From Desulfomonile tiedjei (GTDB taxonomy: Bacteria > Desulfobacterota > Desulfomonilia > Desulfomonilales > Desulfomonilaceae), in assembly GCA_016218715.1 (NCBI GenBank), contig JACRDG010000099.1, forward strand, positions 21,880 to 85,879: a stretch of DNA of 64,000 nt, read 5' to 3'. The translations under genes were made by a program, and so were the position numbers. The notes under the pieces are model-generated. The model saw only the letters and a list, made by a program, of their open reading frames with translations. It had not been told where the DNA came from and did no database searches. Each line of letters starts with the position of its first letter. The first letter of the stretch is position 1. This document shows, in pieces, positions 10,426-29,189 of this stretch.

Positions 10426-10490
10426 GGCTTTCTTGTACTCCAGTAGCCAAGAACTGTCAACCGGGGAATCCCCCGAAGACCCGCTTCCGG

Positions 10491-10964: not shown

Positions 10965-11124
10965 GCTCCCTCCCGTTCAATACAGACGTCTCCCTGTCTC
11001 ACCGCGGCGGATACGTGCTGCGGACAGAGAGGTCTCGAAGGAAACACCTTCTTATTAGAATTAGATGCAGGACAGGGCGGGAAGAGTCACCGCTGCCGGA
11101 AAGACCCGGCACGGTCGGTCGTGT

Positions 11125-11925
11125 TCACGCGCCGGGGGTTTTACCGGCCGTTCCTCTCACAGCCAGCGTCGGCTCGCGGAAAAGAGCGAACCTTAGCCAT
11201 CGGAAGGCAAATTCAAGCAGCGCCGTGTCGTCGTTCCTGAGGGCTACCACAACGGGTCCTTCAACGTCAAACCGTTGCAGGAAGGGGCTGTTGAAGATAA
11301 AATCGCGGAATTTCTCCGTGTTGTAACAGGCCATGAAGAACATCTGCAAATGCTTCTCTTCCAGCGGCACCGCGCGGCCGCGGCTTTTCAATACGTAGAG
11401 TTCCATCAGCAGATCGTTGAGCCGGTTGTACTCCTCGAGGCCCTGATCGGAAAGCCACTCCCGCACCGTCCATAGCCTCGTCTCCTCAAACCCTCTGCAG
11501 TGAGCTTCTCTGACCGTGAAATAGAACTCCCTGTGGCTCCCGTCCATGGGATGCGAGGTGGAAGCCCTGCCGAGGGGATAGATGCGGCACGCGGCAGGCC
11601 GATCCTCATAGAGGGAACACCCCCGGGGTGTGACAAAGGGGCATTTTCTCTCCCCCTCCGCTTCCATTTGAAGCAGCACCTCAGGAAGTCCGTGCACGGT
11701 CCTCCAGCGCACGATCGCGTACGTATCGAGGAATTCGGCTGATGTGATGGCCAGCCGCTTCTTCAGGCGCAAACAATCGTACGGTGTGAGCATCAGCTCG
11801 AGTTTGGCGCAGCATTCCGTGAAACACGGCACATGGGGGCCGCATGCGAACTGGAACGTGTCGTCCGCGGAGAGTCGGCGATCCATATCGACCGCGGCGT
11901 TGGGGGGTGTTTGTTGTCGCTCCAT
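11125..11925 (-). CDS. YkgJ-family cysteine-cluster protein
   Basis: 266 residues. The N-terminal half has the zinc- or iron-binding-type cysteine pattern of the YkgJ/CxxCxxCC group: FACGPHVPCFTECCAKLELMLT and, about 70 residues on, RKCPFVTPRGCSLYEDRPAACRIYPLGR. The C-terminal 120 residues are specific to this subgroup, with no recognisable domain. The start has AGGAG five bases before the ATG. gmhB lies 37 bases upstream on the same strand. The family's biochemical role is generally unassigned; metal or cluster binding is an inference from the cysteines. Confidence 0.8.
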   Translation of the reverse strand: MERQQTPPNAAVDMDRRLSADDTFQFACGPHVPCFTECCAKLELMLTPYDCLRLKKRLAITSAEFLDTYAIVRWRTVHGLPEVLLQMEAEGERKCPFVTPRGCSLYEDRPAACRIYPLGRASTSHPMDGSHREFYFTVREAHCRGFEETRLWTVREWLSDQGLEEYNRLNDLLMELYVLKSRGRAVPLEEKHLQMFFMACYNTEKFRDFIFNSPFLQRFDVEGPVVVALRNDDTALLEFAFRWLRFALFREPTLAVRGTAGKTPGA

Positions 11926-11962
11926 TTAGGCTCCTGTGTATTGCAGCGAGTGATCGATAAGT

Positions 11963-12556
11963 TCAGCGATCTCCGGACTCCGCGGAATGCCCCTCCCCTG
12001 AGGCCGCGGTGATTCTTTCGAGGTACACGGCGAAATCCAGGAGGCTGCGGAAGACCAGATGAGCGTTTCCGTCCTCCTCCTCGGTGATGCGAACCGCGCG
12101 AACACCGGCGTTTCGGCCTGCCTCGACGTCAGCGGGCGAATCTCCAACCATGTACGAACGGCTCACATCGCAATCAAGCTCTTCGACTGCCCTGAGGATC
12201 ATCCCCGGCTTGGGTTTCCGACAGTCACAGGACGGGTCTCCTTCGTCGTGAGGGCAGTGGTACACGCGGTCCACCGCGATGCCGTTCCTGAACAGCACCT
12301 CGGCCATATGATCGTGAACTCTGGCCAGGTCTTCCTCTGTCATGAAGCCCCGCGCGATGCCCCTCTGGTTCGTGATGACCACAAGGAGGTACTCCAATTT
12401 CTTGAGAATCGCGAGCGCTTCGACTGCTCCCGGAATCAGTTCGAACTGCGACGGACCGCTCACATAGTGGTTTTCAGGGAGTTTGACGTTGATCACACCG
12501 TCTCGATCCAGGAAGATCGCGGCGCATGATCCGGTCGAGACCTCAGGGTAGTCCAT
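11963..12556 (-). CDS. gmhB: D-glycero-D-manno-heptose-1,7-bisphosphate 7-phosphatase
   Basis: 197 residues of the HAD superfamily histidinol-phosphatase/GmhB group. Motif I is FLDRDGVIN, motif II VITNQRGIARG, and the zinc loop CPHDEGDPSCDCRKPKPGM is the GmhB hallmark; motif IV is MVGDSPADVEAGRNAG. It removes the 7-phosphate during ADP-heptose synthesis for the LPS inner core, in line with waaF later in the window. Cytoplasmic. The C-terminus (about 25 residues after LERITAASG) is poorly conserved. Confidence 0.88.
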   Translation of the reverse strand: MDYPEVSTGSCAAIFLDRDGVINVKLPENHYVSGPSQFELIPGAVEALAILKKLEYLLVVITNQRGIARGFMTEEDLARVHDHMAEVLFRNGIAVDRVYHCPHDEGDPSCDCRKPKPGMILRAVEELDCDVSRSYMVGDSPADVEAGRNAGVRAVRITEEEDGNAHLVFRSLLDFAVYLERITAASGEGHSAESGDR

Positions 12557-12948
12557 GCTCGTACTTTCAAGAGGGATTAGCCGCGCGGATCGTACGCTTA
12601 CACCGGCGCAAATCCGGAGGACTCATCATAAATGCCCTGCAGGATAAGGTCAAGCGGGGGCGCCCGATCGATCGCTTCCAGAGGTCCGAATGAAATGCGA
12701 TTAGTCTGCCATGAAAATATAGTCAGTGATAGCAATAAGTTGTATGTCATAAATAAGCCGGTGAATCAGGAGAGATCCGATCGGAGGGCGGTACCGGGCA
12801 CTCACCCTGGTTGTTTTCACAGGGTTTTCGCGACGCCAAGAACGGCATTCTTGGAAAAGACCTCATGACAAGCAAATATGAAAACAACGGTATTATACAT
12901 AGTTAACCATCTGTCATGAAAAAGATTCAACATTTTCTCAGAAATCAC

Positions 12949-12976
12949 TTGACATATAATTCCCGCTGAATAATTA
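12949..12976 (+). promoter_or_regulatory. Sigma-70-like promoter for the first beta-barrel gene
   Basis: TTGACA (12949-12954), a 16-base spacer and TAATTA (12971-12976), 39 bases before the GTG start. It sits in an AT-rich pocket that ends the 12557-13014 gap, the rest of which (12557-12940) shows no gene I can support. The upstream region of the paralogous gene at 38825 carries a TTGACA at the same distance from its start. Confidence 0.5.
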
Positions 12977-13014
12977 CAGCATCCCAGGACATTCAGTGAA
13001 GGAGGGAGGGTACC

Positions 13015-14175
13015 GTGATAAAGAAGCCCTTGAATGTATTGGTTTGTCTAGCTATTCTGTTGACACTGACCTCTGCGTCCGCTCTGTGGGGTTATAACGG
13101 GACAGGTCTGCCTTCAGGCACGGCTATTCAGGGAGACTCGCTCTCTGTCGATCCTGCCGCGAAGACCGTTCCACAGGTCCGTCCCTATGGAGGGACTACC
13201 GTATCGAGCCCCGCGGTTTCAGGAACTTCATCCGGATCACGTCATCGAACCAAGAGCACCGGGAGCCGTTACAGCTCCAACCCCCAAGGTTATGGCACAG
13301 GCACGTCCCGGCAGTATGCCAGCCTCGATCAAGGCTACGCCCCCGGAAACCCGGCGTCGCAAGGCATGTCCGGGCCGTTCGCACCGTGCGGAATCTCGTA
13401 CGGGTCTTCTCCGTGCGCTCCACTGGTCCTGCCGCGGGTGGGCCCCAAGCAGTTCCAGTTGGACGCGAAACTCTGGTATGCCACGCTGAACGCCAGCACC
13501 GTCCTCTGGGGGACCATACCGGGTGGTTTCGTCGCAACCGAGCTGAATCTGCATGACGACCTGGGTTTGAGCAAACAGCAGTACATTCCCGAGTTCGAGG
13601 GGCGCTTTCAGCTTCGTTGCAACTGGGGGGTGCGCATGTCGTACATGCCTATCCAGTACAAAGACACCACCAGGACCACGCTACCATTCTATTTCGGAAA
13701 CCTTATTTACGCCGCGTTCGTACCCATCGAGACGGAGTGGAACAGGAACATCTGGCGTGCCGAGCTGATCTACGACTGGTTTCAGGCACCACACGCGGTG
13801 GCCAGCATCTTCTGCGGGTACAGCCTGTACGACGACAAACTGACTGTGCGACAGCCCTTGCTCTTCCAGAGCCGTACGCGGTCCCAGGGCTTCGGACTCG
13901 TCAGGAGTGGCGCGATGCTCGACCGCGTCATCAGCAAGGTGGGCTGTGGGGGGGCTGTGGCTTCCGTCCACTGTGAGGGCGCGCTCCACTACCTGGAAGG
14001 ATACGTCGGGTACGACGTGTACGGCACGGGGAGAGTGTCCGTGCCGATGGGTTGCGGCCGGTTCGGGTACCTGGAAGCAGGGTGGAGATTCATGGTCCTG
14101 GAGCGAAGCTACCCCACCAATGTGGATAGAACCAACATGGACGGCGTGATCGGAGCAGTGGGCCTGGTATTTTAG
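13015..14175 (+). CDS. Exported outer-membrane beta-barrel candidate, paralogue 1
   Basis: 386 residues from a GTG start with a very strong ribosome site (gaaggagggagggtacc). A signal peptide (MIKKPLNVLVCLAILLTLTSASALWG) is followed by about 110 residues of Ser/Gly/Thr-rich linker, then a domain of alternating aromatic/hydrophobic strands (FQLDAKLWYATLNAS, FEGRFQLRCNWGVRMSYMP, WRAELIYDWFQAP, GRFGYLEAGWRFMVLE) ending in a C-terminal phenylalanine (GAVGLVF), as in Omp barrels. The barrel part shares layout and strand motifs with the protein at 38825-39856. Two or three Cys pairs (CGISYGSSPC, CGGAVASVHC) could form disulfides. No family name recognised; a passive or structural outer-membrane role is inferred. 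Confidence 0.72.
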   Translation: MIKKPLNVLVCLAILLTLTSASALWGYNGTGLPSGTAIQGDSLSVDPAAKTVPQVRPYGGTTVSSPAVSGTSSGSRHRTKSTGSRYSSNPQGYGTGTSRQYASLDQGYAPGNPASQGMSGPFAPCGISYGSSPCAPLVLPRVGPKQFQLDAKLWYATLNASTVLWGTIPGGFVATELNLHDDLGLSKQQYIPEFEGRFQLRCNWGVRMSYMPIQYKDTTRTTLPFYFGNLIYAAFVPIETEWNRNIWRAELIYDWFQAPHAVASIFCGYSLYDDKLTVRQPLLFQSRTRSQGFGLVRSGAMLDRVISKVGCGGAVASVHCEGALHYLEGYVGYDVYGTGRVSVPMGCGRFGYLEAGWRFMVLERSYPTNVDRTNMDGVIGAVGLVF

Positions 14176-14369
14176 CACGAATGGCTCTACGTGAGTCCTA
14201 CTGGGTTGGTCAAGGAGTGTGAACGACGATCGACGGGGGAGCAAGTCGCAGACCCGGGTTCTCGGGGTGTTTCAGCGGGCGCTTCCCTTCAAAGGTTGAA
14301 TGTCCATCCAGGGTGCCGTGAGGAGAAGAACTCCACGAGAACCCGAAACTACTGCGACAATGCCCCGGC

Positions 14370-14396
14370 AAGCCCGACCAGTGCACTGGCGGGCTT
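14370..14396 (+). terminator. Hairpin between the barrel gene and rplM
   Basis: AAGCCCG-a-CCAGTGCACTGG-CGGGCTT: two stacked perfect stems with a one-base bulge, then GTTATTT. It lies about 195 bases after the barrel stop and 60 bases before the rplM promoter. The remaining 14176-14455 stretch shows no gene. Confidence 0.5.
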
Positions 14397-14455
14397 GTTA
14401 TTTGGGCAGCAATCGCGGTAGGGTAGGGGTGTCCAGGATTGTCCGCGGGATTCGC

Positions 14456-14484
14456 TTGACACACGCGCGGACCGGTGGTAAAAA
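14456..14484 (+). promoter_or_regulatory. Promoter of rplM-rpsI
   Basis: TTGACA (14456-14461), a 17-base spacer and TAAAAA (14479-14484), 30 bases before the rplM ATG. A good match to the housekeeping consensus, at the expected place for a highly expressed ribosomal operon. Confidence 0.6.
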
Positions 14485-14514
14485 CTATGGTTTACACGTT
14501 TGAAGAGGTTTGCC

Positions 14515-14946
14515 ATGAAGACCTGGGTTCCCAAGAAGGATGATGTAGTCGAGAAGAAATGGTTCGTGATCGACGCCAAGGATAAGGTCCTGGGACGGGT
14601 TGCCGTCGAAGCCGCACGGATGCTCCGGGGAAAGAACAAGCCCCAGTTTACCCCGTACGCGGATGCCGGGGACTTCGTCGTGGTGATCAATGCGGCCAAG
14701 GTTCGTCTGACGGGGAAGAAGCTCGAGCAGAAAATGTACTACCGCTACAGTGGCTACCAGGGCGGCCTCAAGGTCACCCAGGCCTCGACGCTGCTCAAGG
14801 CGAAACCGGAACGCCTGTTCTGGCTGGCGGTGAGAGGTATGCTCCCCAAGAATACCCTCGGCCGAGCACAACTCAAGAAGCTGAAGGTGTACGCGGGCGA
14901 TACCCATCCCCATGCAGCACAGAAGCCGGAAGCCTATCAGTTATAG
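14515..14946 (+). CDS. rplM: 50S ribosomal protein L13
   Basis: 143 residues. The ORF opens at TTG 14500, but ATG 14515 (gaagaggtttgcc-ATG) gives the family-type start [28 protein letters not shown]. Conserved blocks follow: the [32 protein letters not shown] segment and the C-terminal [23 protein letters not shown]13 is an early-assembling large-subunit protein. It is followed 15 bases later by rpsI, the universal bacterial pairing. Confidence 0.98.
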
Positions 14947-14961
14947 TCCTGGAGTAACGAC

Positions 14962-15354
14962 ATGAGTGACGATCAGTATTACGCGACCGGTAAAAGAAAG
15001 AATGCGGTAGCCAGGGTTTGGCTCAAGCCGGGGAGCGGCAACATCGTGGTCAACGAGCGCGGCCTGGACGAATACTTCCGCCGTCAGACATCCAGAATGG
15101 TCATCATGCAGCCGTTCGAGTTGACCCAAACCGTCGGCCGCTTCGATGTGATGGTCGTCGTACACGGCGGTGGCCTGTCCGGCCAGGCTGGAGCGGTGAA
15201 GCACGGCATCAGCAGGGCATTGCTCGGGGCGAGCACGTCGCACCGGCCGGTGCTCAAGGCCGCAGGCTTCCTCACCCGGGATTCTCGGGTCAAAGAGCGG
15301 AAAAAATACGGGAAGCGCGGCGCCAGAGCGAGCTTCCAGTTCTCCAAACGTTAA
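14962..15354 (+). CDS. rpsI: 30S ribosomal protein S9
   Basis: 130 residues with the S9 hallmarks: an N-terminal [19 protein letters not shown], the central [22 protein letters not shown], and the basic C-terminal tail [25 protein letters not shown] whose final Lys-Arg reaches the P-site tRNA. A TGGAG ribosome site precedes the ATG. Second gene of the rplM-rpsI operon; the convergent sirtuin gene ends only 15 bases downstream. Confidence 0.98.
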
Positions 15355-15369
15355 TACTACGCCGGCAGG

Positions 15370-16161
15370 TCACCGGGCGTCCACTTCACCTTGCAGCAAA
15401 CGGTGCTGTTTCATCAGGGCGTCCATGACCTCTCCTGCCTTCCCCTTGAGAACGACATCCATGTACTGGTCGTAGGGCGTGGCGTCGAGGTTCGCCAGAA
15501 TAAGCGAAGCTCCGCCGCGTTTCGCGTCCAGTGGCAGAAAACACGCCGGCTGAACCACAAGTGAAGACCCGATCGTGATGAAGAGGTCGCACGCGCGTGC
15601 GTGGACGAAGGCCTCTTGCAGGACATCCGCGGGGAGGGATTGTCCGAAGGCTATAGTCGCGCACTTGAGCGGTCCCCCGCAGTGCGGGCAGTGAGGCACC
15701 TCGATCCCCTCTCGATCCATCATGTCCGTTATCTCTTCCCGGGGCCACCTGGCATTGCAGTCCAGGCAGGTCACTTCTCTCACCGTCCCGTGAAGTTCGT
15801 AGATCTTGTCAGGGGAATTTCCGGCCTTAAGGTGGAGGCCGTCGATGTTCTGGGTGATGAGCGCGAGCAGTCGGCCGGTCTTCTCGATCTCCACCACTGC
15901 TTGGTGTGCAGCGTTCGGCATCGCGTCCCGCATGGGAGGATATCGGGCGCGGTCGTATTCCCAGTAGAGTTTGCGATATCGCTCGTGAGAGCGGAACTTC
16001 TGATACGTCAGGTCGTCAGGATTGTATTGGCTCCAGATCCCCCCCGGAGATCGAAAGTCCGGTATCCCCGACTCGGTCGATATGCCCGCACCCGTAAAGA
16101 CGACGATTCTCCTCGCGTCGCGAAGCATACGGGCTGCGGTTTTCAGCGCGTCCGTGTCCAT
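15370..16161 (-). CDS. NAD-dependent protein deacylase (sirtuin)
   Basis: 263 residues from ATG 16161 (caggagcctcac-ATG); the ORF extends upstream without a better start. Sirtuin motifs are all visible: VVFTGAGISTESGIPDFRSPGGIWSQY, TQNIDGLH with the catalytic His in YELHGTV, and a four-cysteine zinc site (CLDC ... CPHCGG plus the following Cys). The enzyme removes acyl groups from lysines using NAD+. The class-III YxxR desuccinylase residues are not evident in the expected segment, so general deacetylase or deacylase activity is the safest call. cobB is the usual bacterial name for relatives; I leave the symbol open. Confidence 0.9.
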   Translation of the reverse strand: MDTDALKTAARMLRDARRIVVFTGAGISTESGIPDFRSPGGIWSQYNPDDLTYQKFRSHERYRKLYWEYDRARYPPMRDAMPNAAHQAVVEIEKTGRLLALITQNIDGLHLKAGNSPDKIYELHGTVREVTCLDCNARWPREEITDMMDREGIEVPHCPHCGGPLKCATIAFGQSLPADVLQEAFVHARACDLFITIGSSLVVQPACFLPLDAKRGGASLILANLDATPYDQYMDVVLKGKAGEVMDALMKQHRLLQGEVDAR

Positions 16162-16300
16162 GTGAGGCTCCTGACCGGGGAGTACCCGCTGATTACCCCT
16201 CTGCGCGTGGGGAGGACTAGGTACAGGTTTTCGCAAATACGGTCACGTATTCCCGTGGGACGCGGTCTCCGTTCATCGCCCCGGCATCACTGGCTGGATT

Positions 16301-16361
16301 GGTGGGACAGGCATCTTTTGCCTGTCATTTCTCTCTGGACAGGCAAGATGCCCGTCCCACC
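16301..16361. repeat. Long inverted repeat, probably a dispersed palindromic element
   Basis: ggtgggacaggcatctt-ttgcctgtc and its complement gacaggcaagatgcccgtcccacc face each other across 11 bases. The arms are near perfect over about 24 bases. It lies in the 16162-16465 gap, otherwise without a gene. Such elements usually occur in many copies per genome; only this pair is inside the window. Confidence 0.7.
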
Positions 16362-16465
16362 GTGCTCCCCGAAATGCGTGACCGAACTTGCGAAAAGATG
16401 CATACGTGACGGTCGCCCCAGTTGCCTCCCGAGCCGGAATCCGTCTCAACGTGAACACGGAACGT

Positions 16466-16741
16466 TCATCGTTTCTCTGGCTGATTGTCCTTGCGCCGGG
16501 GTGGAATCTTGCACTTGTCAAGCTTTCTCATGGCATTCTTGACGGACACGATTTTGTCGAGTATCTCCGTCAAGCCGTCAAAGGTTATCTCCTTCGACTC
16601 CGGAAGCTTTCGGGTTGCGTACTCGTGGTATTCCTGCCTGAGCCGCACCAGTTCCCGGGTCATCTCTCCGCAACTTTTCGCGTGGGTGATCCAGGGAACG
16701 CTCAGTACCAAGAACAACGCGGTAAACGCGATCTTCATCAT
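16466..16741 (-). CDS. Small exported protein (91 aa) next to the TPR-CHAT gene
   Basis: A signal peptide (MMKIAFTALFLVLSVPWITHAKS) precedes about 70 highly charged, helix-prone residues (CGEMTRELVRLRQEYHEYATRKLPESKEITFDGL...) ending KCKIPPRRKDNQPEKR. The two cysteines of the mature part are near its ends and could form a disulfide. It lies 125 bases downstream of the TPR-CHAT stop on the same strand, so co-transcription is possible. Family not recognised. Its plus-strand counterparts are shadows. Confidence 0.65.
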   Translation of the reverse strand: MMKIAFTALFLVLSVPWITHAKSCGEMTRELVRLRQEYHEYATRKLPESKEITFDGLTEILDKIVSVKNAMRKLDKCKIPPRRKDNQPEKR

Positions 16742-16866
16742 GGGGACCCTGCAAGTCGCTTTGGCTTTGCCGCGGGAGTGCGATCGGTCCGGTCAGGCCT
16801 TTTCCGCCCCCGTTCCCAGGGGTGGGAGGTGGAGGCCGCCTCCGTGTTGCGGCAGGCACCACGATA

Positions 16867-19800
16867 TCACATGCTGAGCAGTTTGCGCCAGGCAGATACG
16901 CCCTGGAAGCGCATGCGCTGCTGATCCGGTTTGAGATGCGACGGAGGGAACGCCACGGTCCATTCTCCCATGAGAACGAACGGGGCCCAATAGAACGGAT
17001 GGCTCGTCGCCGGGTTTGACAGGAGCGCAAGCTTCGCGCGGCGGAGTGCTTCGGTTTTGCTCCCATCGCTGAGATTGCGGTACATGTCGATGAAGAGCTT
17101 CGCAGTGCTGTCGTCGTTTACCTGCCAAAGGCTCAGCACCACCGAGTCGGTCCCTGCAAAGAGAAAGGCCCGAGATAATGCGAGGATGCCGTCGCCTTCC
17201 GCGGTGTACGGAGAGCCGCCGGTGAGGCATGAGGAGAGAACCACCAGATCCGAATTGAGCTTGAGCCCGAATACTTCACCGAGTTGGAGAAACCCGTCAT
17301 TCTCTCGGTCTCCGAATAGAGAGAAGAGGATGGCCGGCTGCTGCTGGAATTTGCCGGAGCCTGAAACCAGGACTCCGTGGGTGGCCAGGTGGATGTAGCT
17401 GTAGCGGCTCAAGTCAGCTTTCTTGAAGAGCGACTCGGTGGCTTGATCGCCGAAGTAGACCTGGGTGGGGCCTCCCATGAGTTTGGCGATTTCCGAGATC
17501 TCGCGCCGCGCGCCCGGCAATGAGCGAAGCTCGGCGGTGCGCGACGGACGAGTGGTGTGCGTGACCGTGGTCAGGAGGCGATCCGCACCGGGATTAGGCT
17601 CTTTGGTCTTGGTCGGATCGGTATACAGAGCGTCTCCGAAGGCCGCAAGACTCCACCCGGGCTCTTTCTCATGTTTTCTTGCGCGCACGTTGGAGAGAAC
17701 GGACGCGGAGGGGGCATAAGAGAACGCATAGTTCTCCACGAGGTACGTGGGACGGTCGCTGGCCGACCAGAACCGTTTTCCCGCGTGACTCTTCGAACTG
17801 ACGAGTATTTCAAAGGGCAGGGAGGCCAGAGGTCCGTGTGGAACTACCACCACCGCTTTCTTCGCGGCAAGAAAATATTCTACAGGTGCGATGAGCCTTG
17901 AATATAGGCGATGCGCGACTGAAGGATCCCAGTTCGAAGGAGTGTCCGAGCGATGCAGCGGTTTGATAAGGGTTTCGATATCTCGTTCCATCTCCTTGCT
18001 CGGGTACTGAATGGAATGCGCGTGGAAGCGGTTCTTGTCGATGGCGAACAGATAGGTGCGCGCCCTTGTCACCATGTAGACCAGGATCGCCTCTTCCGGA
18101 CGGATCACGTCTTTCTGGAGCTGGTGAACGGAAATGGGTTTGGGGAAGCGTAGGTCCGCATAGGACGGGTACTCCTTCGTGAGTCGATCCTTGAGTTTTC
18201 TGAACGCGTCTTCCTTGAGTCGGCGTTCGTCGAGGATCTTCTTGACCTGAGCCTGGTCGGGATGGACCCGGGAGAGTTCGGCGGCCAGCCGCGAGTGGAG
18301 CTTCCGAAGACCGAGCTTGAGACTCTTCTCTTTAATGAGCAGCTCTTTGGGCAGGTCTGAGAAGGCGCTCACGTTAATCTTGGCAAGAACGTTCTCGAAC
18401 TCGGCCGCCTTAAGTTTCTCCACGATGCGCAGCGCCTGGGCGTCGTACGCGCCCTCGGGGTCTTTCCGAGCCAGTCGCATCATCACTCTCAGAGTAGTCT
18501 CGAACAGAGAATTCTTGCCGCCAAAGATGAAGTCATCCTCGTCCAACTCTTCAACGATGTCGGCTTCCATAGCTTCCAGAATCGTTATGGCCTTGCGATA
18601 CGATTCCAGCGCTTCGCCAAGGCTGTTCTTTTCCTCGAGCGCCCTGCCCATGATGAAGTAGGCTTTCCAGAGCATGCTCCTGTCTTCGGAGTTCTGAGAA
18701 ATGACGAACGCGCGCTTCAAATCCGCGACCGCTGCGTCGAAACCGCCGAGGATAGACGTCACGAGCGCCATCTGGAGAAGGTTCTCGTTTACGCCTCGCC
18801 GGTCTCCGATTTTGGTCCGGATCTCACTCGCTTCTCTGTAGCTGTCCAGCGCGACCCGCGGGCGGCCCAGCACCTGATACAGGGTCCCCATGCGCGTGAG
18901 CACGCGAGCCTCGGTTCGTTCGTCTTTGGTGTCCCTCGTGATCGCGAGCGCCTGCTGGTGGCGCTTGAGCGCAGCCTCCGGGTCGCCCAGCTTGCTCAGG
19001 ATGTCCCCCAGGCGGATCAATTCGCTCTTCTGCTTCTCGAGGTCGCGCAGCTCGGTGTTGAGCCGCAACGCGTCCTCGAAGAAATCCTTGGCCTTGGCAT
19101 AATCTTCGGTCATGTAGTAGACGTTGGCGATCCGGTCGTCGATCTTGGCCAGGTCACTGTAATTTCCATGGGTCTGACAAGAGGTAAGGGCTTTGTGATA
19201 ATGCTCCAAGGCCCGTTCGAAATCCCGGAAGCCTTCGTAGATTTCCCCGAGGTAATAGTGGAGATCGGTCGATTGCGATGCCGGCAGACCGAGTTCGGAC
19301 AGGAGCTTGAGGGCCTTATGGAGGTTCGGCAACGCGGTTTCATAGTCTTCCGTCTTGACCTGAACCACCGCGATGCCGCTCAGAGCCCAGAGTTCTCCTT
19401 GCCGATCCCCTTGCTGTCTCATTTCCGTGAGGGTTTCCTGCAGGAGAGCCAAAGCCTTTGCGTATTCCCCTGCGTCTTCCAGTACGGTAGCCATTTTCAA
19501 TCGTATGGAGGACAGTGCCCGCCCTTCGTTCAAGCTTCGAGCGAGACTCATCGCCTTCTTCAGCGACGACAGTGCTCCGCTCGCGTTCCCTTTGGCTCGT
19601 TCCAGCATGGCCTGTTCTGTAAGAATGGCCATCTCTCCAGCCTGGTTGTTGATGCGCTTGTTCATCTTCGCGGCTTCGTCCAGGGAGGTGGTCGCGTTTT
19701 TCAAGTCTCCCTTTGCCAGGTAGACCCGTCCCATGCTGGTCAGGTTGGTTGCCGCACCCCGGGAATCCTGGATCTGGCGCTGAATCGCCAGAGCGGCGCT

Positions 19801-21954
19801 GAACTTTTCCAGGGCCGTGGCCTGCGCCCCGCGAGCGGCCTCAGCGTTACCCAGATTCGTAAGAATGTCGGCTTCTCCCTTTCGGTCCGACAGATCGCGA
19901 TAAATGGCCAGAGCCTGATCGAGATGCTGCACACCGTCCACGATGCGGTTCCTGTGCCGAAGGACGTTGCCGGTATTGGCGAGGTTCGCCGCGTGCCCTC
20001 TACGGTCCCCGATCCCCTTGGCCAGGTCGAGCGCTTTGTTGAAGTATTCGAGCGCCTTGTCGTGGTCGCCGACGTGCTTATAGTAGACACCCAAAGCTGT
20101 CAAATCCCGCCCTTCGCCGAACCGGTCGGACAACGCCCGATGGCTTTCCAGCGCCTGCAGAAAAGCCTTTTCAGCCAGATCCCTGCGCCCCTGCATTTCA
20201 TAGGCGAGCCCGCTTAGATGGTCACAGTCGGCCATGGACCGGCGGTCGTTCAGCTCACCGAACTCGGCACGGGCGTCCTTCGCGTCCTGGAGTGCCCGCT
20301 CCGAATTGTCCCGGGAGAGACGGAAGCGCGCGAGAGCCAGCCGAACCGCGGCTCGGGAGCGACGATCCACACCGGCCTTCACGTCCTCGACCGCTTCCTT
20401 GAGCAGCTTCGCTGCGGTTTCCGGATCCCCGGTGCTGCCGTGCATCTCCGCCAGCAGAGCGCGCGTCAGTGCAGCCTGGTTGCGATCGTGGACCCTCTTG
20501 GACACTGCGAGGGATGCATCCGCATATTCCAGTGCCTTATGGACGTATCCCTGGCGGAAATAGACCTCACCGATCTGACGAAGCGCGGCAGCCTCACCGC
20601 CCTGAACCGACAAACTCCGGAACTCGTGCAGGGCCTTGCCAGCCAGCGCCAGTGCAGACTCGAACTTGGCCCGATCCGCCTCCAGGCCCGCCAGCCTGAG
20701 GCGAACGCGCGCGACCATGATGGCGTCCCCGGCTTCCTCATACAGCCTCAGCGCGGCGTTGAGGCTGTTGGTGGCCTGGGCCGCCTTGCCTTCGGCTGCC
20801 AGGGCCATTCCACTGACGAGCAACGGCAACGCGCTGTTCCCCGCGTGTGGTTCGCCGAGGAGCGCCTTCCCTTCATCCAGGGACTTCCGGCTCGCAGCCA
20901 GATCTCCCTGGAGTTGGTCGATGTATGCAAGTCGAAAGAGGGTTTCCCCTACCTCTTTTGCACTATTGGCATCGCGATAGAGTTTCAACGCCTTCGTGAA
21001 ATTGGCCTTCGCAGCCGAATAGTCCGATCGGGACAAATGGGTCTCGCCGACGAGCAGATTTATCCGGGCGGATTCTGTCTGGTTGGAATCCTTGGCGAGA
21101 AACGTCAGGGCACGGTTGAGCGCGGCGAGCGCCTCGCCGTGCTTGTGGAGCCGGAGCAGGCAGGTCGCCATGTTCTCCAGGAGCTTCGGTTTTTCCGCTG
21201 CCTCTGATTCTGGGAGCAGCTTCAGAGCCTCATCGAAGGATTTTATTGCTGCCGGATAGTCGGCCATGGCCATCTGGATGCGGCCTGTCAGCAGGTAGTC
21301 GAGACTTCGGGCTCTGGCGTTTTTGAGGGTCTTGTTCAGGTCGATGGCGCGGTTCAGGTATTCCAGGGCCTCTTTGTCCTTGCGGAGCTGGTGGGAGACA
21401 CGCGCCAGAGCCGAAAGCACCACTGCCGATGCCTTCTGATCCTTGGCTGCCGTGAGCTTTTCCAACGCCACTTTGTATGCCTCGAACGCTAGGGTGTGAT
21501 CTCCATTCTTCTCAAGCTCTGCCGCGCGATTCAGCATCGAAGCGAGGTCTTCCACCGGTCGCTTCTCCGGGGCCGGCTCCGCTGTCGAGCTTGGCTGTGC
21601 TTGAATGGTGGAGGGGTCTTCTTTCTGCACTTCAACCGTCGGACCTTGCTCGGGCGGAGTCTGCGCCGAACTGGGTTCAGGCTCGGGGCTCGGCGCAGGT
21701 GCCTCAGGGACTGGCTCGGGAGCACGCGCCGGACGAGACCAAGGCTTGACGGGAGCATCGTGCAGCCTCCTGGGCCCGGGCGCCTCTCCCCCGCCCATGA
21801 GGGCTTCAATGCGTGTTCCGCCGAAAACCTCCGTGTCATCGGGTTCCGCGAGAACTCGTTCCGGGTAGACAGCGCCGGCCACCAGCAGGCACGCGCACGC
21901 CGCCGCAGTGGCAAAATCTACGTATCTGAACCTTTGTTGGAAGAATCGAATCAT
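16867..21954 (-). CDS. Exported giant TPR-CHAT protein (caspase-like peptidase candidate)
   Basis: The ORF runs from 22059, but ATG 21954 with a gaagga site starts a signal peptide (MIRFFQQRF...LLVAGAVYPERVLA), giving 1695 residues. After a Pro/Glu-rich linker (about 50-140) come roughly 25 tetratricopeptide-like units up to about residue 1170 (for example DHDKALEYFNKALDLAKGIGDRRG, RDFERALEHYHKALTSC). The C-terminus is a CHAT domain (about 1330-1660): the putative catalytic His is H1526 in HLATHG, the Cys is C1576 in VLSSCLTG, and the domain closes with YWAPFVLMGEW. CHAT domains are clan CD cysteine peptidases, relatives of separase and the TPR-CHAT partner of type III-E CRISPR effectors. No CRISPR gene is near. 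The signal peptide places it outside the cytoplasm, where it may be a peptidase controlled by TPR-bound partners. Confidence 0.88.
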   Translation of the reverse strand: MIRFFQQRFRYVDFATAAACACLLVAGAVYPERVLAEPDDTEVFGGTRIEALMGGGEAPGPRRLHDAPVKPWSRPARAPEPVPEAPAPSPEPEPSSAQTPPEQGPTVEVQKEDPSTIQAQPSSTAEPAPEKRPVEDLASMLNRAAELEKNGDHTLAFEAYKVALEKLTAAKDQKASAVVLSALARVSHQLRKDKEALEYLNRAIDLNKTLKNARARSLDYLLTGRIQMAMADYPAAIKSFDEALKLLPESEAAEKPKLLENMATCLLRLHKHGEALAALNRALTFLAKDSNQTESARINLLVGETHLSRSDYSAAKANFTKALKLYRDANSAKEVGETLFRLAYIDQLQGDLAASRKSLDEGKALLGEPHAGNSALPLLVSGMALAAEGKAAQATNSLNAALRLYEEAGDAIMVARVRLRLAGLEADRAKFESALALAGKALHEFRSLSVQGGEAAALRQIGEVYFRQGYVHKALEYADASLAVSKRVHDRNQAALTRALLAEMHGSTGDPETAAKLLKEAVEDVKAGVDRRSRAAVRLALARFRLSRDNSERALQDAKDARAEFGELNDRRSMADCDHLSGLAYEMQGRRDLAEKAFLQALESHRALSDRFGEGRDLTALGVYYKHVGDHDKALEYFNKALDLAKGIGDRRGHAANLANTGNVLRHRNRIVDGVQHLDQALAIYRDLSDRKGEADILTNLGNAEAARGAQATALEKFSAALAIQRQIQDSRGAATNLTSMGRVYLAKGDLKNATTSLDEAAKMNKRINNQAGEMAILTEQAMLERAKGNASGALSSLKKAMSLARSLNEGRALSSIRLKMATVLEDAGEYAKALALLQETLTEMRQQGDRQGELWALSGIAVVQVKTEDYETALPNLHKALKLLSELGLPASQSTDLHYYLGEIYEGFRDFERALEHYHKALTSCQTHGNYSDLAKIDDRIANVYYMTEDYAKAKDFFEDALRLNTELRDLEKQKSELIRLGDILSKLGDPEAALKRHQQALAITRDTKDERTEARVLTRMGTLYQVLGRPRVALDSYREASEIRTKIGDRRGVNENLLQMALVTSILGGFDAAVADLKRAFVISQNSEDRSMLWKAYFIMGRALEEKNSLGEALESYRKAITILEAMEADIVEELDEDDFIFGGKNSLFETTLRVMMRLARKDPEGAYDAQALRIVEKLKAAEFENVLAKINVSAFSDLPKELLIKEKSLKLGLRKLHSRLAAELSRVHPDQAQVKKILDERRLKEDAFRKLKDRLTKEYPSYADLRFPKPISVHQLQKDVIRPEEAILVYMVTRARTYLFAIDKNRFHAHSIQYPSKEMERDIETLIKPLHRSDTPSNWDPSVAHRLYSRLIAPVEYFLAAKKAVVVVPHGPLASLPFEILVSSKSHAGKRFWSASDRPTYLVENYAFSYAPSASVLSNVRARKHEKEPGWSLAAFGDALYTDPTKTKEPNPGADRLLTTVTHTTRPSRTAELRSLPGARREISEIAKLMGGPTQVYFGDQATESLFKKADLSRYSYIHLATHGVLVSGSGKFQQQPAILFSLFGDRENDGFLQLGEVFGLKLNSDLVVLSSCLTGGSPYTAEGDGILALSRAFLFAGTDSVVLSLWQVNDDSTAKLFIDMYRNLSDGSKTEALRRAKLALLSNPATSHPFYWAPFVLMGEWTVAFPPSHLKPDQQRMRFQGVSAWRKLLSM

Positions 21955-22055
21955 GTTTCCTTCGCTTTCGCAGTGATCGGCAGCCGTTTGGAAGCGGTCA
22001 ACCGGCAACGCCCGCCCCGGATGAACCGACAGGCGAAGCAGCCGCGCGAGTGCCG

Positions 22056-22922
22056 TCACCCTGCTGAAAAGCCATTAGTTTCTTTCTTCGTGCCCGGCGA
22101 CCGGTTTGTTCCAGCCCTCTGGCCGCGCAGGAAAAGCAGTAGCGAAATCCCACCGACAATCATGCACAGGCAGAGGATCTGCCCCATGGTGAGCCCTTCA
22201 AACACGAACCCGAGCTGCGGGTCGGGCTCGCGAACCAGCTCGATAAGAAAGCGGAAGATACCGTACCCGATCAGGAAGACGCCAAGAAGCTGCCCGTGAA
22301 TGCGGAGTCGGCGTCTGAGCGACCAAAGAATCAAAAAGAGGATGAGACCCTCGAACAGCGACTCGTACAACTGCGACGGATGACGGGGCAGAGGGCCGCC
22401 CAGCGGGAAAACGATCCCCCATGGTGCCGTGGTCACTCGGCCGAAGAGCTCTCCATTGATGAAGTTTCCGAGCCTCCCCAGCATGAGGCCGGGAGTCGCT
22501 GCGAGCGCACCGATGTCGGCCAGCTCCAGGAAGCTCGCATGGTGGCGACGAGCAAACAGAAACCCTAATACCACCATGCCGATAAGCCCACCGTGAAAGC
22601 TCATCCCGCCGTTCCATACGGCTAGAATTTCCCAGGGCGCGGAGACATACACGCTCAGGTTGTAGAAGAGCACGTACCCCAATCGGCCGCCGATGAGCAC
22701 GCCGAGGATCAACTGAAAGAGAAAGTCTTCGGCACCCTCGGGAGGGATCGGTCCCTGCTTGCGGCGGAGTTCCGATCGTATGATCAGGTAGGCCAGGGCG
22801 AAACCGGCCAGGTACATGACCCCGTACCACCTCACTTCGAGGGGAGGCGTATGGAACCACCCCAAATCCAGTGAGCCTATATGAATCAGGACCGGATCGA
22901 TGAACGGGTAATGCACCGTCAT
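22056..22922 (-). CDS. lgt: Prolipoprotein diacylglyceryl transferase
   Basis: 288 residues from ATG 22922 (gagagg site); the ORF's longer N-terminus is non-homologous. Lgt transfers diacylglycerol from phosphatidylglycerol to the lipobox Cys of prolipoproteins in the inner membrane. The family signature GGLIG followed by the LGRLGNFINGELFGRVTTAPWG loop is clear, with seven hydrophobic segments and the conserved HPSQLYES motif. It lies 101 bases upstream of the TPR-CHAT gene on the same strand. The last 20 residues (GTNRSPGTKKETNGFSAG) are a variable tail. Confidence 0.95.
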   Translation of the reverse strand: MTVHYPFIDPVLIHIGSLDLGWFHTPPLEVRWYGVMYLAGFALAYLIIRSELRRKQGPIPPEGAEDFLFQLILGVLIGGRLGYVLFYNLSVYVSAPWEILAVWNGGMSFHGGLIGMVVLGFLFARRHHASFLELADIGALAATPGLMLGRLGNFINGELFGRVTTAPWGIVFPLGGPLPRHPSQLYESLFEGLILFLILWSLRRRLRIHGQLLGVFLIGYGIFRFLIELVREPDPQLGFVFEGLTMGQILCLCMIVGGISLLLFLRGQRAGTNRSPGTKKETNGFSAG

Positions 22923-23016
22923 GCTGGGGCCTCTCTCATGCCGTGGCCCACACCCCTGGGTGTTGCCTGCCGGTCGAGGCAACCGAGAATCCGTTTTCCC
23001 ATGCTCCGCGGCCCAT

Positions 23017-23213
23017 GAGGCTGTTGCGTAACGCAATGCTTTCCCGACATCGTGGCACGATGGTGTCGATTGCCGCAGTGACTCGTCAATGCCGTCACCT
23101 GAAAAGCTAAGTATGTAAGCATCATAGGAGCTTCCCAACCGAAGCCGGGTGTCCACTTATCCGCTGATGTGCCATCATTTCTCCGATGCGCGGGGTTAAG
23201 CGGCAGGCTCCTA
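23017..23213. repeat. ~197-bp dispersed element, copy 1
   Basis: Begins gaggctgttgcgtaacgcaatgctttcc and ends ggcaggctcctag. The first 28 bases match copy 2 (from 40921) at 27 positions, and further blocks are shared (cacctgaaaag, tataggagc/cataggagc, gtgcc-tcat-tctccg, the terminal ggctcc). Ends are imperfect inverted repeats (TGAGGCTGTTGCG / TAGGAGCCTGCCGC). The right end, read on the minus strand, is the TAG stop of the methyltransferase gene. The lgt-to-methyltransferase gap holds little else. Confidence 0.75.
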
Positions 23214-24035
23214 GTCATCGGTCGTTCCCAAGCCGGCGTTCACTGGTCCTCTTTCGTCGGCAATCCGCATCATGTTGCTTATCTTACGAAAGATGCCGCG
23301 GACGATCTTCACGTCCCGATCGTCCATGGCTGCGCTATTAAAGATACGCCGGACGTCGCGCATCATCCGCAACGGGTTGGCGGGGTCCAGAAATCCTGCC
23401 CGAATGAGAACGCTTTCGATGTGTTGATACATGTCCTCACGCGCCTCGACGGACGCAGGGATCAACTTCTTGGCCTGAAAGTGAACCGGCACGGACGCGG
23501 CCTTGAAGATCTCGTACGCGATGACCGCCGCGGCATGCGCCACGTTCATGGACGCAAACTCCTCGTTGGTCGGAATAATCAGGTGATGGGTGCAGAGCTT
23601 CATCTGTTCGTTGGTGAGCCCTCTCGATTCTCGTCCGAATACGCACGCCACGGGGCCCGCGAGGGCGCTCTCCAGCAACTCGGGGATCACCTCCGTGGGA
23701 GCGCGAGCCGCGACCCGTTTCCCTCCGAGTCTCCCGGACGTGCCTACCGACATCACCGTGTGCCCGAGCGCTTCCTCGAGGGTTTCGCAGAAGCGAGCCC
23801 TTTCGACGATGTCGTAGGCGCCGGAGGCCCGAGAAAACGCCTCAGTTTCGGGTCCACAATCGGTTGAAGAAACGAGAGTAAGATTCTGCAAGCCCATATT
23901 TTTCATGACACGCGCGACCGCTCCAATGTTCCCGGCATGTGTGATCCCGACCATGACAAACTGCACGTTCTCCAGTGCCTCCACCCATTGGGAGTGGATT
24001 CTGAACCCTCTCTGGATGCGTCTGGACGGCCTCAT
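23211..24035 (-). CDS. SpoU-family (TrmJ-like) RNA 2'-O-methyltransferase
   Basis: 274 residues from ATG 24035; longer starts exist (to 24218), so the N-terminus is uncertain. Conserved SPOUT motifs are motif 1 THAGNIGAVARVMKNMGLQNL, motif 2 ACVFGRESRGLTNEQMKLC and motif 3 IPTNEEFASMNVAHAAAVIAYEIF, which form the trefoil-knot SAM site. The 70-residue C-terminal extension (VEAREDMYQHIESVLIRAGFLDP...RIFNSAAMDDRDVKIVRGI) is TrmJ-like, pointing to Nm32 modification of tRNA. The stop codon TAG lies exactly at the end of a dispersed repeat, so the C-terminal GPVNAGLGTTDD may be shaped by that insertion. Confidence 0.87.
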   Translation of the reverse strand: MRPSRRIQRGFRIHSQWVEALENVQFVMVGITHAGNIGAVARVMKNMGLQNLTLVSSTDCGPETEAFSRASGAYDIVERARFCETLEEALGHTVMSVGTSGRLGGKRVAARAPTEVIPELLESALAGPVACVFGRESRGLTNEQMKLCTHHLIIPTNEEFASMNVAHAAAVIAYEIFKAASVPVHFQAKKLIPASVEAREDMYQHIESVLIRAGFLDPANPLRMMRDVRRIFNSAAMDDRDVKIVRGIFRKISNMMRIADERGPVNAGLGTTDD

Positions 24036-24301
24036 TGCAACGGGGGCGCCTTCCGTGAAATCCAAGCGATTACCGGCAGCCGCGTCACTACACTGACGGC
24101 TCACGCTGGAGTTGTCTCCAAAATAGTTAAACGGTATCAGCATGTTAACGGTAATACCCGCGGCGCGCAAGCCGTGGGGGCTACGCGGCACCGTAGTATC
24201 CTCATGTCCTATTGTCAAGGGATATCAAATGAAAGGAATTGCTTCTTAGTGCAGAGGATGAAAAGGAGGTTTCGATGGTTGCGCAAGCCTATTTGCTTTC
24301 A

Positions 24302-24357
24302 AAGGAGTAATCTGGGGAGAACCTCTTTGAACAAAGGTTTCTGCCCAGTTACTCCTT
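24302..24357. terminator. Long hairpin between the methyltransferase and rubrerythrin genes (GGGG-AAC family, copy 1)
   Basis: aaggagtaa and ttactcctt form a perfect 9-base outer stem around CTGGGgagAACCTcTTTG-aa-CAAAGGTTtctgCCCAG. It is 17 bases beyond the rubrerythrin stop (minus strand). No T-run on either side. The core resembles hairpins at 26908 and 52106. The rest of the 24036-24373 gap contains no gene. Confidence 0.55.
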
Positions 24358-24373
24358 GGAGTGCGCTCTGGTC

Positions 24374-24871
24374 TCAGTCGATTTTCTTGAAGGATGAGCC
24401 CTTGGCCTGGCAGATTGGGCACCGTTCCGGCGCTTCATGCTCGACTGTGTACCCACACAGCGGACACACGTAATATGAGTATTGCTCTTGAGCAGATCCT
24501 AGACTGTCGAGCAGCACTTTGTACAGCTCCGCGTGGACCTTCTCGACTTCATTGGCGTACTCGAAGGTACGGAGGGCCTGCTTGTTTTCTTCGGCTTTGG
24601 CAGCCTCGATCATCTCCGGATACATGTGCTCGAACTCATGGGTCTCGCCCGCGATGGCTACTTCGAGATTCTCTTTCGTGGTCTTTATCCCCTTCAAGGC
24701 CTTCAGATGGTTGTGCGCGTGAATCGTCTCCGCCTCCGCGGCTGCCCGGAACAGTCTGGCAACCTGAGGATGCCCTTCCTGATCTGCCTTGACCGCGAAA
24801 GCAAGATACTTGCGGTTGGCTTGCGATTCTCCGGCAAATGCTTCCTTTAAGAATTCTTCAGACTTGGACAT
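24374..24871 (-). CDS. Rubrerythrin
   Basis: 165 residues from ATG 24871 (gaggttca-ATG with an aaaggggagg site); the seven residues upstream in the ORF are dropped. Two Glu-rich helical motifs of the ferritin-like diiron domain are present (EAFAGESQANRKY with AAEAETIHAHNH; AIAGETHEFEHMY with ANEVEKVHAELY). The C-terminal rubredoxin-like site is CPLCGYTVEHEAPERCPICQAKG (two CxxC). Rubrerythrin reduces hydrogen peroxide in anaerobes, using electrons passed through the Fe(Cys)4 site. It is transcribed alone. Confidence 0.95.
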   Translation of the reverse strand: MSKSEEFLKEAFAGESQANRKYLAFAVKADQEGHPQVARLFRAAAEAETIHAHNHLKALKGIKTTKENLEVAIAGETHEFEHMYPEMIEAAKAEENKQALRTFEYANEVEKVHAELYKVLLDSLGSAQEQYSYYVCPLCGYTVEHEAPERCPICQAKGSSFKKID

Positions 24872-25062
24872 TGAACCTCCCCTTTCTCTCATTGGAGTGA
24901 TCTGCGGCAGCGACTGCGGTAAACGGCAGGGCTGGGTGCGTCAGAAATCGGTCATCAGGGCAATGGCCGGGATGCAGAACCGAACCGCCCGATGCCGCAG
25001 CGTTTGCCCGAATTTCTGTGACGTCCGCTATAGAAGGCCTCATCGCTTCTTGTTTGGCAGCC

Positions 25063-25218
25063 TCACCCGGAGGCCATGGATACCCCGATCACCGTGCCGA
25101 TCACAACGGCTACCACGGGGTTGCACCAGAGCGCTCAGCCGACCCCCGCATTGGAACTGATCAGATAGAGACCAAATCCTGCAGCCGCGCCGACGATTGC
25201 GCCGATCAATGCTTTCAT
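25063..25218 (-). CDS. Candidate small membrane selenoprotein with in-frame UGA (51 codons)
   Basis: Start ATG 25218 has an ideal GGGAGG site five bases upstream. The first 27 codons read MKALIGAIVGAAAGFGLYLI...AGVG, a transmembrane helix. Codon 28 is TGA (25135-25137). The frame then continues ALWCNPVVAVVIGTVIGVSMASG, a second hydrophobic helix, to a TGA at 25063-25065. Read through, this is a two-helix hairpin with U-A-L-W-C-N-P in the loop, the place where small two-helix membrane proteins of anaerobes carry a Cys-x-x-x-Cys-(x)-Pro pair. A hairpin can be drawn just after the UGA (UCUGGUGCAAC / GUUGUGAUCGG, loop of 12 with GUGGU), in the range expected for a bacterial SECIS, but it has several G-U pairs. 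The alternative is a 27-residue peptide or a decayed gene. Confidence 0.6.
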
Positions 25219-25568
25219 CATTGCCTCCCTCGATTTGACGAAACCGCCGGCTTTTGGTGACCGGATCGCGTACAACCAGTAGAGGACCATGCTGGGCAGT
25301 CCCCCTGGCTGCGCTGGAAAGACCGTGGCTTCCGCAGCGGGGTTTCCGGTACGTTTCGCCATTCCTCACCGAGGCAGTTCGCTTCAGTCATTCTATCAAG
25401 ATGGACATGGGGCCGCAATATGGTGGACCGCTTTGAAAACTGAGACAGAGTTGTAATGACTTGAACGTTCCCCGACCCTATTATATGACCGGAGGCCGGG
25501 GCGCTTCAGCCGAGACACGGATGGCTGCGCAGGAGTCAGTGCAAAGGGGCTGCTGGGAGTGAAGGAAC
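25219..25568. other. Gap upstream of the candidate selenoprotein and the O-methyltransferase
   Basis: About 350 bases between divergent genes. ORFs listed here (for example 25135-25362 minus) are merely upstream extensions of the selenoprotein frame without a ribosome site. I see no RNA gene and no convincing promoter pair. Confidence 0.5.
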
Positions 25569-26564
25569 ATGAACGACAAATGGACGAGAGACAAACTGCT
25601 CGAACTGGGCGGCGGGTTTCGGATCTGCCGAATTTTCCTGAGTGCCGTGGAATTGGACCTGTTTTCCAAGCTCCGCCAAACCCCCAGGACCGTCGATGCC
25701 CTCGCCGTGGATGAAGGATGGGACCCCCGCGGCCTCCGAATCCTTATGGATGCGCTGGTGTCGCAGGGGCTGCTGTCCAAGGACAGTCACGGTGAATACG
25801 CCGTACCGGAGGCCCTGGCCGAGTGGCTCACCGGGGACGGGGAGGAGACGATCCTTCCCATGACGTTGCATCAAAGCCACCTCTGGAGCAGCTGGTCGCG
25901 GCTCACGGAGATTGTTCGCACCGGGATGAACCCCAAAATCGTGCCTGAAAAGAAGCGGTCGCGCGAGGAGCTGGAAAGCTTCATCGGTGCCATGCACGTG
26001 GTCGGTCGCGCCATGGCGGCAAAGATCGCGGACTCAGTCGACCTGTCACCGTTCACGCGTATGCTGGATGTGGGAGGAGGATCGGGAACCTACCTGATCG
26101 CCTTCCTCACGAAAGCCCCCCACTTGACGGGAACGCTGTTCGATATTCCCGACGTGGTGGAACTGGCCAAAAAACGCTTGACCGAAAGCGGGTTCATCGA
26201 CCGTGTCGAGCTGAAGGTCGGTGATTACAACAAAGACCCGCTGCCCCGCGGCCACGACCTCGCTTTGCTCTCCGCGGTGATTCATATCAACTCTCGGGAG
26301 CAGAACAAGGTCCTCTACGCCAATGTGTTCAACAGCCTCGACCCGGGAGGCACGATCCTCATCCGGGACCACATTATGGATGCAACGCGCACGGTCCCGC
26401 CGGATGGAGCGATCTTTGCGGTGAACATGCTCACGGCAACGAGCGAAGGAGACACGTACCCGTTTGACGAGATCAAGGAAGACCTTGAATCGGTCGGCTT
26501 CCGGGATGTGCGATCGATCCGAGACGGCGGGCATATGGATCAGCTCGTCGCCGCGGTGAGGTGA
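25569..26564 (+). CDS. SAM-dependent O-methyltransferase-like protein with dimerisation domain
   Basis: 331 residues of the plant-COMT/bacterial small-molecule methyltransferase type. The N-terminal winged-helix dimerisation domain (about 1-90) includes RICRIFLSAVELDLFSKL and RGLRILMDALVSQGLLSK. The Rossmann SAM domain has motif I MLDVGGGSGTYLIAF, then TLFDIPDVVELAKKRL and VKLKVGDYNKDPLP-like motif II. The usual catalytic His region reads LSAVIHINSREQNKVLYANVF. Substrate unknown; relatives act on tetrapyrroles, quinones or polyketides, and no biosynthetic cluster surrounds it. A gaaggaac site precedes the ATG. Confidence 0.82.
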   Translation: MNDKWTRDKLLELGGGFRICRIFLSAVELDLFSKLRQTPRTVDALAVDEGWDPRGLRILMDALVSQGLLSKDSHGEYAVPEALAEWLTGDGEETILPMTLHQSHLWSSWSRLTEIVRTGMNPKIVPEKKRSREELESFIGAMHVVGRAMAAKIADSVDLSPFTRMLDVGGGSGTYLIAFLTKAPHLTGTLFDIPDVVELAKKRLTESGFIDRVELKVGDYNKDPLPRGHDLALLSAVIHINSREQNKVLYANVFNSLDPGGTILIRDHIMDATRTVPPDGAIFAVNMLTATSEGDTYPFDEIKEDLESVGFRDVRSIRDGGHMDQLVAAVR

Positions 26565-26746
26565 AAGAGCCTCATGGGAAGGTGTACTCCGAGGCAGTCG
26601 CATCGGTGCTAACCAAAACAAGGGTAAGCTCCCGGCTAGATGGGGAGACTCCCAAGGGTTTGCCCGTGGGCGGAGGTAGCGACCGGTGTTGTGAGAAAGC
26701 ACCAGCTCCGAATCCATTACTTTTGGAAAGTCCCATCCGCCCGTCT

Positions 26747-26817
26747 CGTCACCCCGGCGGAGGCCGGGGTCCAGAAGATGTGTGAAAGCCTGGATTCCGG
26801 CCTTCGCCGGAATGACG
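26747..26817. repeat. Inverted pair of 28-bp REP-like palindromes
   Basis: cgtcaccccggcggaggccggggtccag (26747-26774) and, inverted, ctggattccggccttcgccggaatgacg (26790-26817). Each unit is itself palindromic around CCGGC-GCCGG. This resembles the widespread CGTCATTCCGGCGAAGGCCGGAATCCAG dispersed element. It lies in the gene-free 26565-26967 gap. Confidence 0.75.
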
Positions 26818-26907
26818 GACGGAGGAACGGCCGAGTTTCAAGTTAACGCCTATGCTCCCATGGGGAGAAGGGACCCTCAAACCGACTCGCAATCCAAAGA
26901 GTGAATT

Positions 26908-26952
26908 TGGGGAGGAACCCTTTTCTCAAAGGTTCTCCCCAGATTTTTTTTT
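26908..26952 (+). terminator. Rho-independent terminator (GGGG-AAC family, copy 2)
   Basis: TGGGGAGgaACC-cttttctcaaa-GGTTCTCCCCA followed by AGA and nine T residues: a textbook terminator for plus-strand transcription from the O-methyltransferase side, just before the convergent cytochrome gene's stop. The stem core matches the hairpins at 24302 and 52106. Confidence 0.8.
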
Positions 26953-26967
26953 GAACGCGAACCGGTC

Positions 26968-29100: not shown

Positions 29101-29189
29101 CACAAGCCCCTCGGATGACTGCATCCCCTATCCAGACTGTTCCGGCATCGCTCTTGGGTAACTTCTCGTATGGAGACGAGGGCGCGGTA

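Follow-up and report, generated by a model that had tools for sequence, protein, structure and literature searches.

The minus strand of the window, the whole 64,000-nt stretch of Desulfomonile tiedjei DNA analysed here, encodes a predicted exported TPR-CHAT protein of 1695 aa (16867-21954, stop codon included), identified from its open reading frame, Pfam matches and orthologue searches. We favor the view, to which we give about an even chance, that it is a housekeeping envelope protein specific to the Desulfomonilaceae, with partner binding or scaffolding as its shared function, and acting as a peptidase in most genera and as a pseudoprotease in one. Binding or scaffolding is proposed as the common function because the full protein persists in one genus whose CHAT domain is catalytically dead. 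Discussion of bacterial CHAT proteins has mainly centred on proteases of immunity or cell death in the cytoplasm. A housekeeping function in the envelope is suggested by a TPR-CHAT protein that is exported, present family-wide, vertically inherited and located in an lgt operon. The literature searched, of which subscription papers made up a small part, yielded no description of an orthologous group of exported TPR-CHATs in which one branch is a selected pseudoprotease.

A reading of the DNA made from the letters alone (the sequence-only reading) had placed a 1695-residue open reading frame at 16867-21954, and both coordinates and length proved right, on the minus strand. The ATG at 21954, preceded by GAAGGAAAC, is preferred as the start codon because a start at the in-frame upstream GTG (22059) would run into the end of lgt and extend the protein by 35 residues that are not conserved. 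From the N-terminus, the protein is composed of a signal peptide, a Pro/Glu/Ala-rich linker, the TPRs, a helical bridge and the CHAT domain. The predicted Sec signal peptide (residues 1-36; 21847-21954, minus strand) reads MIRFFQQRFRYVDFATAAACACLLVAGAVYPERVLA, with cleavage expected after VLA and before EP. The orthologues start likewise: by inspection, all 13 complete ones have a hydrophobic N-terminus, and most an AxA-type site. The linker, recognized from its composition, covers residues 37-135 (21550-21846, minus strand). Near the mature N-terminus, 6 of the 7 complete dyad-intact orthologues share the motif xIExLMxGG (IEALMGGG, IESLMAG or IDALLSGG; residues 41-60, window positions 21775-21834, minus strand, just past the signal peptide). 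Among the complete orthologues compared, this motif is absent from genus g5, the pseudoprotease genus, and from L044; it may serve as a tether or act as an inhibitory peptide.

The N-terminal signals of the 13 complete orthologues support the earlier claim that the protein is exported, and would place it in the periplasm. In a sample of 20 stretches comprising paralogues of the same genome and distant relatives, almost every TPR-CHAT whose N-terminus could be read carries a Sec or lipoprotein signal, as judged by a crude rule plus inspection. Export therefore does not set this protein apart in its phylum, and was rejected as the novel feature. The contrast drawn by the sequence-only reading with the cytoplasmic Csx29 thus carries less weight than it first seems to, as export is the rule among the TPR-CHATs of this phylum and the window genome has eight CHAT matches.

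An orthologue, whole or in fragments, was found in 15 of the 17 Desulfomonilaceae relatives searched, in genomes named Desulfomonile, Desulfomonilaceae, Syntrophaceae or Deltaproteobacteria. It is full-length, 1:1 and 45-63% identical in 12 of these 17 genomes, and fragmentary in G002, G009 and G010; the two family genomes without it are drafts (G001, 82% complete, and G017, 85%). The second family sampled from the class Desulfomonilia yielded no orthologue. When the C-terminal 552 aa were used as a query against 247 genomes sampled from the phylum, no equally close full-length match was retrieved outside the family, and the next-best matches showed 29-36% identity over the CHAT region, besides short stretches of 39-51%. 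Each genome has one giant orthologue (split across contigs in G002 and G009), and the other CHATs vary in number, with eight CHAT matches in the window genome and 2 to 19 in each family genome. CHAT copy number thus varies strongly within a single family: G004 has 19 matches and G007 has 16, mostly in open frames of about 900-1200 aa, while G005 and G011 have 2 each.

A second CHAT paralogue is also single-copy (L099:5139-7145, minus strand, on contig C67 of the window genome; relatives L129-L141). It has about 670 aa and a hydrophobic N-terminus, and is present, whole or fragmentary, in 16 of 16 Desulfomonilaceae genomes searched. The catalytic His and Cys are missing from every orthologue of it that covers the site. 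In all eight loci examined, it adjoins or overlaps a gene for an HD-domain hydrolase, named by eye from the sequence. Next comes rpsT on the opposite strand, followed in 6 of the 8 loci by a murJ-like gene (both again named by eye).

Upstream of the giant TPR-CHAT gene, the order SpoU-lgt-TPR-CHAT is constant. The gene lgt, encoding prolipoprotein diacylglyceryl transferase (22056-23156, minus strand), lies directly upstream in all 13 complete orthologous loci, and a SpoU-family RNA methyltransferase gene (23211-24218, minus strand) precedes lgt in 12 of them; in the thirteenth, the contig ends too early. The TPR-CHAT gene starts within 119 nt of the end of lgt, and in L040 and L041 the two overlap by 4 nt (a gap of -4). 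The two genes probably share an operon kept throughout the family. Such an operon suggests that the protein works close to lipoprotein maturation or to the assembly of the envelope, and the sharing with lgt may be only positional.

Downstream, the genes vary among genera. In the window, the next gene is a small exported ORF recognized by its sequence (16466-16741, minus strand; 91 aa, two Cys in the mature part). It belongs to a small exported family of about 90-100 aa, found in only some of the Desulfomonilaceae searched and usually right behind the TPR-CHAT gene: it lies beside it in six genomes and elsewhere in two, and no significant match was obtained in G001, G004, G005, G007 and G011. 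It was rejected as an obligate partner or substrate because of the two genomes in which it lies elsewhere and the five in which it is unmatched, and is a possible non-obligate partner of the TPR-CHAT. Elsewhere in the window, two adjacent MoeA-type genes (32665-34617 and 34499-36952, both minus strand) were observed, one of them with a fused C-terminal PBP-like substrate-binding domain.

CHAT proteases act in Craspase immunity, and the protein could accordingly be read as a conflict or defence effector, that is, a death protease like the CHAT proteins of CRISPR type III-E. This is very improbable in view of its surroundings and inheritance. The neighbours scanned include no identified cas, gasdermin or defence genes, and window 10000-30000 shows no CRISPR-like repeats, in agreement with the earlier claim that the gene stands outside any CRISPR context. 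Moreover, the protein is apparently single-copy in each genome, vertically inherited and of constant synteny, and its sensor groove is conserved, which is the opposite of the fast, variable evolution of a defence sensor. PADLOC returned generic TPR-type matches and none specific to a defence system, hence no such identity was retained.

The TPR solenoid covers residues 136-1128 (18571-21549, minus strand), as delimited by Pfam, the structural model and conservation. The TPR_12 profile matches at E=4e-83 in nine stretches. The AlphaFold2 model shows 14-15 repeats of about 40 aa across residues 551-1128, 13 repeats score strongly with a profile made from the protein's own repeats, and residues 136-550 leave space for about ten weaker ones. 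The earlier count of about 25 TPRs is plausible, with half of them firm (14-15 modelled, 13 strong by profile).

The groove was defined by the canonical TPR helix-A positions 2, 5, 6, 9 and 12, in the 40-aa register of the predicted solenoid. Among 13 orthologues, conservation reaches 0.81 in the groove and 0.83 in the core, versus 0.65 at other positions (p=8e-8), and 3 of 20000 random five-position sets attain the groove mean, although these p-values are optimistic because the positions, while following TPR convention, were chosen after the conservation profile had been viewed. The groove residues nevertheless differ between repeats, with 8.0 effective residues versus 3.4 in the core. Furthermore, dyad-intact and g5 orthologues share the majority residue at 76% of the sites in the groove and at 51% of the remaining sites. 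Such a pattern would be expected for a solenoid that holds a specific partner, presumably a protein.

A helical bridge, defined by alignment and the AlphaFold2 model, leads from the TPRs to the CHAT domain (residues 1129-1345; 17920-18570, minus strand) and adjoins the best-conserved stretch of the protein, residues 1081-1200. The CHAT domain itself (residues 1346-1664; 16963-17919, minus strand) is assigned by PF12770 (E=2e-61; 208 bits versus a curated cut-off of 24) and by Foldseek matches to Csx29/TPR-CHAT and separase. It contains HLATHG from residue 1522 and SSCLTG from residue 1574. The second His of HLATHG, H1526, and the Cys are invariant in 42 of 42 intact relatives, and H, V, I, F or A occurs at the position of the first His; H1526 is therefore taken as the catalytic His, since it is invariant in these paralogues while the first His varies. 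His1526 (codon 17377-17379, minus strand) and Cys1576 (codon 17227-17229, minus strand), both located by alignment, align with the catalytic residues of the Craspase TPR-CHAT (named in PMC9729208). The intact dyad attributed to the window copy by the sequence-only reading is thus confirmed, as is its choice of C1576, by the position of SSCLTG and the Craspase alignment.

Asp1614, the His and the Cys are invariant in all 10 dyad-intact orthologues. Asp1614 was considered as the separase S1 Asp and dropped, as the residue described in the literature aligns four positions later. In the intact orthologues, the motif after the catalytic Cys is SSC[LFI][ST], versus the usual SAC[EQN]TG (SACxTGxG), a departure because of which activity could be weak even in intact members. 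In most genera, the CHAT domain is probably a gated cysteine peptidase, and the partner-gated peptidase proposed earlier is possible.

The sequence-only reading had held that loss of the His or Cys in most homologues would speak against it. The outcome is divided: both residues are kept in 10 of the 16 orthologues examined, and in genus g5 the His is replaced by Tyr in all six members examined, three of which also have Ile in place of the Cys. In a tree built without the dyad columns, a single His-to-Tyr change maps to the g5 stem (branch support 100/100) and a single Cys-to-Ile change is nested inside g5. Sequencing error is an unlikely cause, because six separate g5 genomes are concerned. 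Between g5 pairs, dN/dS (Nei-Gojobori) is 0.05-0.09 for CHAT, 0.05-0.06 for the bridge, 0.11-0.15 for the TPRs and 0.42-0.74 for the signal peptide and linker. The dyad-less CHAT domain is under strong purifying selection and is not decaying; consequently, peptidase activity cannot be the function shared by the whole orthologous group.

It could still be argued that proteolysis is the essential job, partner binding triggering the cleavage of envelope proteins by CHAT, and that g5 repurposed the protein. The invariance of the dyad and Asp1614 in 10 of 10 intact orthologues and the known allosteric activation of Csx29 (PMC10028731) are in its favor. However, we consider it rather unlikely given how strongly purifying selection acts on the dead CHAT in g5 and how well the groove is conserved there. 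In addition, the g5 genome G011 (97% complete) has just two CHAT matches, the dead TPR-CHAT and an orthologue of the universal pseudo-CHAT; since no active CHAT paralogue was detected there for the dead copy to regulate, the protein is unlikely to be merely a regulator of one in this genome.

Conversely, the protein could be a pure envelope scaffold or assembly factor in all genera, its dyad being a relic without physiological use. The divergent motif after the Cys, the natural dead lineage g5 and the second family-wide exported CHAT paralogue, dyad-less wherever the site is covered, would all fit. However, both dyad residues are invariant across the 10 divergent orthologues, and the active-site neighbours degenerate preferentially only where the His is lost. 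The intact set has 133 invariant CHAT columns, of which 17 are changed in at least five of the six g5 members; the changed columns are in excess near the active site (7/23 versus 10/110, p=0.011), including Asp1614 (to Glu or Gln) and Ser1616-Thr1617. The preferential loss of active-site columns in g5 implies that catalysis had constrained them before, and a scaffold-only role throughout the family appears quite improbable.

Under the preferred reading, a binding protein that is also a peptidase in most genera, the TPR-CHAT would be expressed from the lgt operon, downstream of lgt, and exported through Sec. The flexible linker would carry the long solenoid, the concave groove of which would bind a specific, conserved protein partner, and the presence of this partner would be relayed from the solenoid through the conserved bridge to the C-terminal CHAT domain. 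In most genera, this domain would be an allosterically gated His/Cys peptidase that becomes active once the groove is filled, comparable to Csx29, which is gated by target binding (PMC10028731). A more far-reaching proposal, which we put forward tentatively and regard as doubtful in its entirety, is that a separase-like peptidase in an lgt-linked core envelope protein became a selected pseudoprotease in a single, stepwise conversion (first His, then Asp1614 and Cys) that left the groove fixed, and that, with the second, always-dead exported CHAT beside the HD hydrolase gene, it forms a new CHAT-based pathway of envelope sensing or assembly.

The structural comparison with Csx29 and separase suggested at the outset places both among the best Foldseek matches of the predicted model. 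AlphaFold2 models of residues 1081-1695 and 520-1695 have mean pLDDT of 84.5 and 84.2 and pTM of 0.86 and 0.74, respectively. With the former against the PDB, Csx29/TPR-CHAT structures are matched with E down to 5.5e-13 (probability 1.00, whole-chain TM only 0.4-0.55), DdvA with E=2.4e-11, separase with E of 2.5e-9 to 4e-7 and gingipain R with E=3e-5. A profile of the CHAT part also retrieves the Craspase TPR-CHAT, DdvA and Csx29 by sequence.

Similar to the window protein, Csx29/TPR-CHAT has a TPR solenoid followed by a separase-like CHAT domain, in which the His and Cys align. However, Csx29 has 650-820 aa, is cytoplasmic and is bound to Cas7-11, whereas the window protein, 13% identical to it, has 1695 aa, a signal peptide and a place in an lgt operon, with no cas genes among the neighbours scanned to associate it with Craspase. 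DdvA of Myxococcus (PDB 8rot, 8rw5; 991 aa) is the closest solved membrane-tied relative; it is a membrane-linked protein that, like the window protein, has a C-terminal CHAT domain, and it keeps ATHG and AACEGG motifs. According to its PDB description, DdvA is a transmembrane anti-sigma factor, whereas the window protein starts with a signal peptide and a low-complexity linker in place of a cytoplasmic anti-sigma domain and transmembrane segment, and Pfam found no anti-sigma domain in it. In Anabaena, HetF combines CHAT and TPRs, is tied to the envelope, interacts with FtsI and is a putative protease that needs its active site (PMC8406250); compared by description, it differs in being cyanobacterial, in its transmembrane domain and in its domain order.

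Eukaryotic separase shares with the window protein long helical repeats and a CHAT/caspase-fold protease domain, at 9-12% identity. Its specificity residue for P1 Arg, Asp2151, corresponds by alignment to Ala1618, hence Arg-P1 specificity is not predicted. Natural loss of a His/Cys dyad, including His to Tyr and with the fold thought to be retained, is also described for pseudo-orthocaspases (PMC6426788), although these belong to the p20/type I caspase family and have Cys to Ser, whereas here the domain is CHAT and the Cys becomes Ile. The dyad loss in g5 offers a natural experiment in which partner binding by a TPR-CHAT could be told apart from peptidase activity, an issue for most separase-like proteins. 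Neither a component of Craspase, as far as the stretch examined is concerned, nor a DdvA-type anti-sigma factor, and lacking the specificity Asp of separase in the alignment, the window protein is a TPR-CHAT by architecture and a member of the CHAT family.
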